From an uncultured bacterium (GTDB lineage Bacteria; Patescibacteriota; Minisyncoccia; Phycocordibacterales; Phycocordibacteraceae), in the NCBI GenBank assembly GCA_903994795.1, contig CAJEYI010000004.1, forward strand, positions 1 to 50,022: DNA of 50,022 nucleotides. Reading direction: 5' to 3'. A program made the translations under genes and the position numbers. The notes below the pieces were generated by a model that was not told the DNA's origin, made no database searches, and saw nothing but the letters and a program-made list of their open reading frames with translations. Positions 4,324 to 8,162 of this stretch are shown here, piece after piece (positions within the stretch are counted from its first letter, which is position 1; each line of letters starts with the position of its first letter).

Positions 4324-5160
4324 CTAGTCAGCTTTTGAAGAAGACCATAGTGACTCAAAGATCTGCTTAAAATTCATAGCCATATGTGCGTTACTAATCT
4401 TTATTCCTACGAGATTGTTTTTCTCCATGGACATGATGGCCGTTGTATCCCCGATAATATACATCGCAAATTGACTGACAGCATGTTTTGGTGAAAGAAA
4501 TCTATATGAGGAGGCCTTTTGCGTTCTATAAGGCTTTAGTCTCTCTTTTTCTTCTTTGGAGGAATTAACAAGCAGTTTTGTGGTCATTTTTTTCTCTGTC
4601 TTAAATCGTTCAACGTGGTCTTGCCAATCTTTCTCAAAATGAAACTCCCATTGTGGCTTCCAGACAAACTCATCACGGAGGAAGTAGCGCACTGCATTCA
4701 TTGGTGCTTGCCTCATCATTGAAGAATATATCTTCTTCAATCCTTCCTGACCTTCAAATAAAACTATTTCTGGTAACTGAACGTCCGTGCGTGAAAATGA
4801 AGCTACGTGTTTCCGCAATTCTTGTACCAGACTATCCTTTCTTTCTACAGCCTCTTTCTCCTTTCTAACCATTTGTTCTAGTGCAGAGAAATCTTGGGCA
4901 ATGAACTGCTTTACGTCATTTTTATATGTCGTACCAACTAGTCCTTTTGCAATTAGTGAGCTTAAGGTCGTGTATACACTACTACGAGACAACTCGCATT
5001 TTTTTGCAATATAAGTTGCATTTGCAGGTGAAGAAGCTAGTAGCGTGGCGTAGACCATTGCTTCATAGTCCCCGAGACCCAGTTCTTTTAGCTTTTCAGT
5101 CATTATATCCATGTTGTCGGTATTGTACGACATATTGAACAGTTTGGTAAACACGAGCAT
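4324..5160 (-). CDS. TrmB-family transcriptional regulator
   Basis: N-terminal wHTH (LGLGDYEAMVYATLLASSPANATYIAKKCELSRSSVYTTLSSL) and TrmB-like C-terminal region (FEGQEGLKKIYSSM). Confidence 0.8.
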   Translation of the reverse strand: MLVFTKLFNMSYNTDNMDIMTEKLKELGLGDYEAMVYATLLASSPANATYIAKKCELSRSSVYTTLSSLIAKGLVGTTYKNDVKQFIAQDFSALEQMVRKEKEAVERKDSLVQELRKHVASFSRTDVQLPEIVLFEGQEGLKKIYSSMMRQAPMNAVRYFLRDEFVWKPQWEFHFEKDWQDHVERFKTEKKMTTKLLVNSSKEEKERLKPYRTQKASSYRFLSPKHAVSQFAMYIIGDTTAIMSMEKNNLVGIKISNAHMAMNFKQIFESLWSSSKAD

Positions 5161-5215: not shown

Positions 5216-5864
5216 ATGGAGACTGTCATGGCGACACAACTGCAACAGCGCTGGTTTTCTCTCTGGGATCGGCTTAAGCAAAAGTTCCCGAACTACACCG
5301 CAGATCCTCAAGCGTTATATCGGGAGCTCGAAGAACACTACTCAAGAGTTCCCCGGACATACCACACCCTTGCCCACATCGAACAAGGACTGGCGGAATT
5401 CGATAATGTAAGGCACCTTGCTGAGTGGCCAGAAGCTGTTGAATTTGCCTTCTGGTATCACGACATGCTTGGCACAGAACTATTGAGTGCTGAAAAAGCA
5501 CATTCTGTTGCAATGTCTGCATCTCTTGGGGAATGGGTCTTTGCGGCGGTTGTGTCAATGCTCATTCGTGCGACCGATCATAAGACCAACTTTGTCATCC
5601 CTGATACGAAATTTATTGCCGATATTGATTTGACGATTTTTGGTCAGAACTCAGAACGAGGAACAATTTGATGAGTACGAGCGACAAGTTCGTTGTGAAT
5701 ACTCAAATGTGCCTGACAAAATCTTCCGGCGCGAGCGCATAAAGATCTTGAAACGTTTTTTGAGACGTAAGCATATCTATCGCACGTCTTATTTTCGGGA
5801 GAGATATGAAGATCAGGCTCGAAGTAACCTGTTGCGTTCAGTTGAAAGACTGCGCATCGAATAA
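5216..5864 (+). pseudogene. HD-superfamily predicted metal-dependent phosphohydrolase (COG4339-like), split by a frameshift
   Basis: ORF 5216-5671 ends in DIDLTIFGQNSE; ORF 5640-5864 continues the family C-terminus (EEQFDEYERQVRCEYSNVPDKIFRRERIKILKRFL...IYRTSYFRERYEDQARSNL) in the adjacent frame. Confidence 0.75.
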
Positions 5865-5957: not shown

Positions 5958-7274
5958 TTATTTAAAAAAATATGAAAGGTACTTTTGAACTTTATTAACA
6001 TCGACCATCCCGCCTGAACGGAGTCGTGATTCTGCATCCACTGATAACGGTAACTTGAAATAATCTTCGAGCTTTGTAAGCTCGGGAAGCTGTTCAGCAT
6101 CGTACCCGCCTGCTACCGAAATGTGACTCATGCCCTTCTTTATGACTGATAGTATCTTTGATTGTCTAATCTCTGCACTTTCTCTAGCACCTGTGCCGAA
6201 ACTATCATCGAGCAAAATATAGTGATTAGATTGTCGGAAATACTCCACAAACTTTTCGTCATCCAATAGCTCGTACTGAGAATTATTCATTTGAAAGATT
6301 ATATTCTCAGCTCCTAATGACTCAATAAGCTCAAGGTCAACCTTGGGTAATTTGCTATTTTCTCTGAGACGGAACTGAAGTGAATAATTGAATTTTAATT
6401 TCTTAAGAAAGACTTGTAGGTCTCGATAGGACTGGCGGCGCGCACTGTACGTCATGTGCAACACGATTGAAAGGCCCTTTGTTTCATTAAGCACTCTAGT
6501 CAACGCATTGAACTCTTCAACAAATGCTAAATCTTTCAAATTGCCATTTTCAGGAAATACAGCAACACCCAGAAAAAGCTTTCGTTCGTGATTTTTAGAA
6601 TCATATGAGCAAAGTAATTCACCCAATTGTTTATTTCCAATATCTGAACGATAAATTGTGACACCTACGTATGGTTTATGCCCGCCCGAATAATGCGAAA
6701 ACTTCTGTATCTTTGTTTGGATATATTCGGTGTTATAAATTGTTTCTCCGACAATGAGCGACTGCATCGAGACAGGATATCCCGCGCGCTCCAGGATTAA
6801 GCACTTGTAAGGATTATTGGAAAGAAGAAGCATTTTACTTCTGTGACTTTCAAGAAGAACATCGAGCATTTCGACTACAGTAGAATATTCACGAGCGTCA
6901 GGATTACCACTAAGAATCATGTTCGCATCAAAGGTGTCTGCCCCACTCTTCATAAGGTTATAAGCTTGAACCTTTTTGAAAAGTCCCATATTACGACCTT
7001 CCTGTCGGTGATAGATCAAAATACCATTTCCATGCTTTCCTATTTGTCTTAGCGCTTCATCTTTCTGAGGACCGCAGTCACAGGTAAGTGAACCAAACAC
7101 ATCCCCTGTGAGACACTCGGAATGAATGCGCAACATAACTTCCTTATTTGGGTCGAGATTTGGGGTGGTTAAAGCAACTGGCTCCTGACCACGTTCGCCT
7201 TCCCAAACCCACATGACAAAATCGCCATATTTCGTAGGCATTGGCATTGAGACGATGTTTTTTGCTGTTTTCAT
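5958..7274 (-). CDS. GTP cyclohydrolase II fused to a TrpF/phosphoribosylanthranilate isomerase-like TIM barrel
   Basis: GCH2 motifs RIHSECLTGD, LTCDCGPQ, ILIYHRQEGRNMGL, LLSNNPYK; C-terminal ILLDDSFGTG, ISVAGGYDAEQL, PLSVDAESRLRSGGMVDVNKVQKYL. Confidence 0.85.
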   Translation of the reverse strand: MKTAKNIVSMPMPTKYGDFVMWVWEGERGQEPVALTTPNLDPNKEVMLRIHSECLTGDVFGSLTCDCGPQKDEALRQIGKHGNGILIYHRQEGRNMGLFKKVQAYNLMKSGADTFDANMILSGNPDAREYSTVVEMLDVLLESHRSKMLLLSNNPYKCLILERAGYPVSMQSLIVGETIYNTEYIQTKIQKFSHYSGGHKPYVGVTIYRSDIGNKQLGELLCSYDSKNHERKLFLGVAVFPENGNLKDLAFVEEFNALTRVLNETKGLSIVLHMTYSARRQSYRDLQVFLKKLKFNYSLQFRLRENSKLPKVDLELIESLGAENIIFQMNNSQYELLDDEKFVEYFRQSNHYILLDDSFGTGARESAEIRQSKILSVIKKGMSHISVAGGYDAEQLPELTKLEDYFKLPLSVDAESRLRSGGMVDVNKVQKYLSYFFK

Positions 7275-7376
7275 AGTACGAATCTACATTCAGATTCATA
7301 TATATGCTTGAAAAACAGACATGTATATTAAAGTATCTAATATATAAAGCCTATATATAGATATAGCTGTATATAT

Positions 7377-7395
7377 GTGTCAGGATATTTGACAC
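7377..7395. promoter_or_regulatory. Operator-like inverted repeat GTGTCA-N7-TGACAC in a divergent promoter region
   Basis: gtgtcaggatatttgacac between the divergent GCH2 fusion and a TrmB gene. Confidence 0.5.
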
Positions 7396-7424
7396 ATTCT
7401 ACTAAGCCGACTAATCTGTGATCT

Positions 7425-8162
7425 ATGGAAACCGCATTTGTAAAGAGCCTTCAGCAAATTGGACTGAGTGAATCCGAAGCGACTATCTACACGACACTTA
7501 TTAAGTCACCTAAAATGACTGTTTCAGATATTGCACGAGCAACCGGCATTAAGCGTGCAACATGCTACCAATACCTCGACTTCCTTCTTGTGCGAGATTT
7601 TGTAATCCGAGTTCCAGTTGGTAAAAGAATGTTTTACTGCGCTGTAAGCCCCAAGAAAATACTCGCATCTGAGAAGAAACGTCATACGGCTTTCGAAACT
7701 TCGATTGAAGAAATGACGAGACAATATGATGAGTCAACACATAAGCCATGTGTCGCCTTCTATGAAGGTAAACGGGAAATCAAAAACATATACGAGGATT
7801 TATTTAAAACAGTCGGTGATGTGTACTCCATCTTCCCTCCAAAAGCCTTCTTTGAGAATTTTACCGAGGAAGAATATAACGAATTTGATAAATCTCTAAG
7901 CCAGCACGCTTTTAAAAGTCGAGATTTGATTGTGCATGACACTCACTTCCGTCAGGTAGAACAGATTCGTAAGAATAATGGTTACGAGAACAAAATCACA
8001 AAAAAGTTACCTAGTGATTTTAAGAGTAACGTTGATGTGCTTGTGTACAACAATACAGTTGCTCTTGTGAGCTTGCGCGATCTTTCCGCACTAGTAATCG
8101 AAAGTAAAGATATTGCTGAACTTTTCAAAAGCCTGCATTCATCAATTTGGAAATCTTCCTAA
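7425..8162 (+). CDS. TrmB-family transcriptional regulator
   Basis: IGLSESEATIYTTLIKSPKMTVSDIARATGIKRATCYQYLDFLLVRDFV wHTH and TrmB-like C-terminus (FYEGKREIKNIYEDL). Confidence 0.8.
   Translation: METAFVKSLQQIGLSESEATIYTTLIKSPKMTVSDIARATGIKRATCYQYLDFLLVRDFVIRVPVGKRMFYCAVSPKKILASEKKRHTAFETSIEEMTRQYDESTHKPCVAFYEGKREIKNIYEDLFKTVGDVYSIFPPKAFFENFTEEEYNEFDKSLSQHAFKSRDLIVHDTHFRQVEQIRKNNGYENKITKKLPSDFKSNVDVLVYNNTVALVSLRDLSALVIESKDIAELFKSLHSSIWKSS

Follow-up and report, generated by a model that had tools for sequence, protein, structure and literature searches.

A GTP cyclohydrolase II fused to a TrpF-like barrel in Patescibacteria genomes without RibH or FolE

The gene at positions 5958-7274 of the window, by which we mean the whole stretch of 50,022 nucleotides analyzed here, encodes a GTP cyclohydrolase II (GCH2) domain and, in the same chain, a predicted TrpF-like barrel. 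The fusion recurs in other genomes, keeps its active-site and phosphate-site residues, and is found in genomes without the riboflavin and folate genes RibH, FolE, HPPK, and folate-type DHPS. We regard as evenly balanced the proposal that the protein is a bifunctional enzyme, in which the GCH2 step would be followed by an Amadori-type isomerization on the barrel, yielding a product used for neither vitamin. A search of a limited literature collection found no description of such a GCH2-barrel fusion.

Domain anatomy and active-site residues

The gene is a single ORF on the minus strand, intact and without interruption, and its N-terminal half has the following features.

5958..7274, minus strand: GCH2-barrel fusion ORF, 438 amino acids and a stop codon; two-domain orthologues in L074 and L075 are 55% identical
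6690..7253, minus strand: GTP cyclohydrolase II domain, amino acids 8-195 (PF00925, 2bz0, Foldseek)
7113..7115, minus strand: zinc ligand Cys54 (HSEC), by alignment to E. coli RibA; invariant in fusions
7074..7082, minus strand: zinc ligands Cys65 and Cys67 (CDC), by alignment to E. coli RibA; invariant in fusions
6891..6962, minus strand: GCH2 catalytic residues Tyr105, Asp126 and Arg128 (amino acids 105-128), by alignment to 2bz0; invariant in fusions

The GCH2 half matches Pfam PF00925 (E 6.5e-42, 143.3 bits against a cut-off of 23.3) and NCBIfam NF001591 (192 bits, cut-off 148), E. coli RibA (2bz0) matches amino acids 5-195 with E 2e-40, and Foldseek with this half of the AlphaFold2 (AF2) model returned 2bz0 and 4rl4 at about 1e-13. 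The motifs HSECLTGD, CDCG, and YHRQEGRNMGL, on which the first-pass annotation had based its assignment, are all present and agree with these matches. The three zinc-binding cysteines, together with Tyr105, Asp126, and Arg128, which correspond to catalytic residues of E. coli GCH2, are unchanged in all fusion relatives compared. The protein thus has the whole RibA domain with its zinc cysteines and catalytic residues; it differs from RibA in being joined to a barrel, in belonging to a genome that lacks RibH, and in its score of 177.5 bits, under the TIGR00505 (equivalog-domain) cut-off of 205.85, which a related protein (L055) passes with 222.1 bits.

No Pfam or NCBIfam family matched the C-terminal half, and a PHROGs search with the barrel gave no match. 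AF2 modeling of the window protein from eight sequences predicted eight strands alternating with helices at a moderate pLDDT of about 68-70, and Foldseek with the barrel half returned mixed TIM barrels that did not resolve the family; a stand-alone relative was therefore modeled instead. The resulting model of a phage barrel (16 sequences, including the window barrel) reached a pLDDT of 92.7 and a pTM of 0.92; its best PDB match was TrpF 5lhf (E 4.9e-7, TMt 0.74), followed by MfnB, ribulose-phosphate epimerase, and TrpC-TrpF 7etx, while the HisA-type 2cff matched more weakly (E 6.8e-4). The viral structure library contained only unrelated TIM barrels among its matches. A combined barrel profile searched against the PDB also placed a TrpF first (4aaj, E 0.0012), with the LLD aspartate and the GG motif aligned. 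Since the structure route and the profile route both lead to TrpF, we describe the barrel as TrpF-like, the confident model being that of the phage relative rather than of the window domain.

Fusion and stand-alone barrels are homologous, as found by hhalign (96.5%, E 8.6e-10; 95.2%, E 2.7e-8 in a second comparison). The stand-alone family, of about 250 amino acids, has the blocks PYIGIT..., LH, LLDxSxGxG, AGG, and SIDAxxxLR and occurs in scattered Patescibacteria and large phages; the wide barrel alignment is too diverse to serve as a pattern scan. PF00697 matches stand-alone members weakly and always over strands 6-7 (E 0.0019, 0.014, and 0.026), the best of them with 18.4 bits against a cut-off of 22.7, and does not match the window barrel. 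The blocks that the first-pass annotation had singled out in the C-terminal half (ILLDDSFGTG, VAGGYDAEQL, and SVDAESRLRSGG) are real and coincide with conserved blocks of this family. Its TrpF/HisA-like barrel holds for the fold, which the structure prediction it had proposed returned as eight-stranded, and for the kinship of the family model, but not for membership in TrpF: the family is uncurated and predicted to be structurally nearest to TrpF, and the window barrel lacks both the PF00697 match and the TrpF cysteine.

Stand-alone TrpF-like barrels outside any curated family are encoded in large phages and phage-like contigs at L059 (6001-6747), L060 (2094-2837), L103/L090, L104, and L105-L109; the barrel of L059 adjoins a T4-type RNA ligase gene, and that of L090 has a macro domain nearby, as well as a calcineurin-like phosphatase.

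The residues of interest in the window barrel are as follows.

5961..6680, minus strand: TrpF-like (beta/alpha)8 barrel, amino acids 199-438 (AF2, hhalign to stand-alone barrels, family model nearest to TrpF 5lhf)
6456..6458, minus strand: His273, beta3 (VLH), candidate general base; invariant in fusion and stand-alone barrels
6375..6377, minus strand: Gln300, beta4; invariant in fusion and stand-alone barrels
6207..6209, minus strand: Asp356, beta6 (LLD), corresponding to the aspartate of TrpF LLDTGAGSGK
6105..6110, minus strand: Gly389-Gly390, beta7, of phosphate-site type (alignment, profile to TrpF)
6033..6038, minus strand: Asp413-Ala414, beta8 (SVDAESRLRSGG), by alignment

His273, Gln300, Asp356, the GxG motif, GG of strand 7, and DA of strand 8 are invariant in stand-alone and fusion barrels alike, and Asp356, GG, and DA align with TrpF 4aaj through the profile. 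Asp356 sits on the TrpF aspartate that acts as the general acid. The position of the strand-1 TrpF cysteine (KICG), whose absence had been noticed at first pass, is occupied in KPYVGVT by Val203, as it is by valine in both two-domain orthologues, and strand 1 has diverged further in the methyltransferase-bearing clade described below. His273 and Gln300 are candidate replacements for this cysteine, with His273 as the candidate base. The window barrel therefore shares with TrpF (PF00697) the predicted (beta/alpha)8 fold, the beta6 aspartate, the beta7 GG, and the beta8 motifs, whereas it is about 40 amino acids longer and has the additional invariant histidine and glutamine. With the phosphoribosyl isomerases HisA and PriA it has in common the superfamily and, presumably, Amadori chemistry; in contrast to them, KPYVGVT contains no counterpart of the strand-1 aspartate that serves HisA as general base.

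Because the phosphate site and the acid are retained, the barrel appears well placed for isomerization. Counting against the isomerase reading are Val203 in place of cysteine, the moderate confidence of the window barrel model, and the fact that the TrpF match was obtained through a phage relative. A further point against it is that the fusion barrels, in their first half, no longer have certain motifs that are conserved among the stand-alone barrels; a changed substrate would agree with this loss. It is conceivable, though we lean against it, that the barrel uses the GCH2 product differently, by phosphoribosyl removal, retro-aldol cleavage, or 2'-epimerization, and so frees a pyrimidine or another base. 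The missing cysteine with an invariant strand-3 histidine instead, the second-best fold match to MfnB, with epimerases among the others, and a gene in L120 (3303-4574, G1016) that fuses a LOG-like domain (PF03641) to a small methyltransferase domain related to that of some fusions, next to a divergent TrmB-type regulator, would be in keeping with such a reaction; LOG enzymes are phosphoribohydrolases. TrpF is nevertheless nearest both by structure and by profile, and there is no conserved lysine of the MfnB or aldolase type.

Recurrence of the fusion and its regulator

An initial scan of the genome collection with a single-protein query gave no matches. In the sample of the order, a barrel match was found in 12 of 397 genomes, half of which (6/12) encode the full-length fusion, the window's genome with two copies. 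The two-domain form also occurs in G909 and G893, which belong to other families of the same order, at 55% identity. The second copy in the window's own genome (G000, contig C30) is 33% identical over its whole length and reaches 659 amino acids because a class I methyltransferase (PF05175) comes after the barrel; this GCH2-barrel-methyltransferase form is encoded in G018, G080, G1016, and G1106 as well, and in named Patescibacteria MAGs of Nomurabacteria, Adlerbacteria, and the Parcubacteria group. G018, from the window's genus, has a locus identical to L057, which makes the window's organism closely related to 'Patescibacteria group bacterium MGR_bin410'. The survey suggested at first pass thus recovered the fusion both in the two-domain form and in a methyltransferase-bearing clade. 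A tree of the fusions separates these two clades, and trees built separately from the GCH2 and barrel domains give an identical split, so the domains have traveled together.

That two genes were joined by misassembly, or run on into each other by chance, might be suspected in a draft genome of 66 contigs, but many independent genomes carry the fusion at 31-56% identity and with a conserved partner gene. The same two-domain protein in two other genomes refutes the artefact that the first-pass annotation had named as a risk, and we give this explanation practically no credence.

The C30 paralogue (L002/L078, 5106-7082) directly follows a small nucleoside deoxyribosyltransferase-like gene (PF05014). 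Some relatives of the methyltransferase adjoin TrmB genes together with ABC-type binding proteins, NMT1-like in L010 and LivK-type in L119. In the latter locus (G909 contig C7, 20000-34000), TrmB-type regulators alternate with LivK-type binding proteins, accompanied by a branched-chain-type ABC transporter, a stand-alone methyltransferase, and one exact TGTCA-N7-TGACA site. The settings of these methyltransferase relatives, the LOG-like fusion in L120 included, hint at a modified nucleotide-derived small molecule, which we take as a reasonable lead and no more.

Upstream of the fusion gene, the window contains the following.

7425..8162, plus strand: TrmB-type HTH regulator of 245 amino acids, the divergent partner (PF01978, E 7.8e-16)
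7275..7424, no strand: divergent intergenic region common to the fusion and regulator genes, aligned in three genomes
7375..7397, no strand: perfect palindrome ATGTGTCA-N7-TGACACAT, putative TrmB-type operator (intergenic alignment, pattern search)

Divergent pairing with a TrmB-type regulator is found in all three two-domain genomes, and the regulators in G909 and G893, at the same place, are 73-76% identical to that of the window, more alike than the enzymes (55%). The TGTCA-N7-TGACA pattern occurs once in the window against 0.04 expected, and the site within 7375..7397 is its sole exact occurrence in the 902-kb genome; the control pattern is also rare, with two occurrences, and genome-wide uniqueness alone is therefore weak evidence. 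In G306, the stretch that separates a TrmB gene from a stand-alone methyltransferase relative holds the same palindrome twice, and in G909 the palindrome lies upstream of other TrmB-type genes. Because of these other sites in G909, we rejected the idea that it is private to this regulator and gene, and we read it as a putative TrmB-family operator.

Within a span of 8.2 kb, the window encodes three TrmB-type regulators (PF01978), at 1607-2398, 4324-5160, and 7425-8162. Also nearby are a 151-amino-acid ORF (5216-5671) resembling the start of an HD-type hydrolase, with an early end, possibly frameshifted and without a Pfam match, and a lone prephenate-dehydratase-like gene (2412-2978) in a genome expected to have little amino-acid synthesis.

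Regulatory features also bear on the idea of a protein whose main task is to sense or report GTP or the product made from it, with the barrel serving, without catalysis, as a ligand-binding or allosteric module. In addition to the divergent TrmB partner of the window's clade, an XRE-HTH domain (HTH_3, E 2e-11) precedes GCH2 and the barrel in L053, a form placed at the base of the methyltransferase-type clade, and L054 has a version with an N-terminal winged HTH. A pure sensor would not need the GCH2 catalytic set or the barrel histidine, glutamine, aspartate, and phosphate-site residues, all of which are invariant, and we consider this role improbable. The contig of the XRE-HTH fusion (L053, 10982-12502) also has a three-domain copy; next to the fusion comes a short ORF, truncated at the end of the locus, that resembles a methyltransferase.

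Riboflavin and folate genes in fusion-bearing genomes

Pathway genes were searched for in seven fusion genomes, drafts that are 92-99% complete, and positive controls were found each time. Lumazine synthase (RibH), FolE (PF01227), and HPPK were absent from all seven. None had a folate-type DHPS; a DHPS-family match in G080 was rejected as such, being partial and MetH-like in appearance. FolB was found in two of the seven, as it was in a genome of the same genus that lacks the fusion; in G000 and G018 (L080, L081), where FolE, HPPK, and DHPS are all absent, it immediately follows a pheT-like gene on its downstream side.

Riboflavin synthesis was rejected as the destination because RibH is absent, and folate synthesis because HPPK is absent and no folate-type DHPS was found; with FolE missing as well, neither pathway explains the fusion. 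The absence of RibH from every fusion genome bears out the role outside canonical riboflavin synthesis proposed at first pass. The accompanying remark that no other riboflavin genes are present stands for RibH, the sole gene tested for it, and extends in this case to the genome. That the protein is an ordinary RibA of the riboflavin pathway whose C-terminal extension is incidental would agree with the strong RibA similarity of the GCH2 half, but the extension is conserved and has a family of its own, and the lack of RibH where controls were found makes this very unlikely.

Other GCH2 arrangements in Patescibacteria, at L009 (790-2745), L007 (742-1845), L005 (1258-1977), L012 (1480-2094), and L013 (1495-2151), place the domain between kinase-like and CYTH-like domains, in fusion with a HAD hydrolase, or beside a cytidylate-kinase-like or dipeptidase-like gene. 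This variety suggests a wide non-riboflavin use of GCH2 in the group.

Proposed reaction and its significance

In the bifunctional scheme, the GCH2 domain would convert GTP into 2,5-diamino-6-(5-phosphoribosylamino)-pyrimidin-4-one, formate, and pyrophosphate. The TrpF-like barrel would then grip the 5'-phosphate and turn the ribosylamine into its 1-deoxyribulosylamino form by an Amadori-type rearrangement; spontaneous ring closure of this form, through its free 5-amino group, may give a 7,8-dihydroneopterin-type monophosphate. We infer both reactions, and channeling between the two sites, from the domain content and conserved residues. The fused methyltransferase of the sister clade probably modifies the product, and the divergent TrmB-type regulator would control expression by binding the palindrome. 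It counts against the scheme that nothing which would use a pterin or a deoxyribulosyl-pyrimidine further downstream was identified, FolB being present in only two of the seven fusion genomes.

A precedent for the pairing comes from Chlamydia, in which RibA and TrpF, as two separate proteins, reportedly replace FolE. The likeness lies in a GCH2 product passed to a TrpF-type isomerase, which for the window protein is a proposal, in an organism without FolE. Chlamydia is said to have a nearly complete folate pathway and, in TrpF, a genuine PRA isomerase, whereas the window has one fused chain and a barrel without the cysteine, with neither HPPK nor a folate-type DHPS in the genome. A Chlamydia-type bypass would combine the absence of FolE, found in all seven fusion genomes, with a downstream set of FolB, HPPK, and DHPS, of which two of the seven have FolB and none has HPPK or a folate-type DHPS.

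Few biosynthetic products are known from Patescibacteria, whose genomes are minimal, and a conserved, specifically regulated GTP-using enzyme that feeds neither riboflavin nor folate points to an unrecognized metabolite. As a tentative suggestion, less probable to us than the bifunctional enzyme itself, this may be a GTP-derived small molecule new to science, the phosphate of a pterin or of a deoxyribulosyl-pyrimidine and in one clade a methylated one, that acts in signaling or host-cell interaction rather than as a vitamin. One multidomain protein with a regulator of its own would make it, and the barrel would then represent a new TrpF-like isomerase family, with histidine in place of cysteine, also present in large phages. 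The analysis adds an uncurated family of predicted TrpF-like barrels, which large phages also carry and in which the classical cysteine base is missing. The pairing of RibA and TrpF in one chain would open the Amadori shortcut to pterins to study in a single protein.
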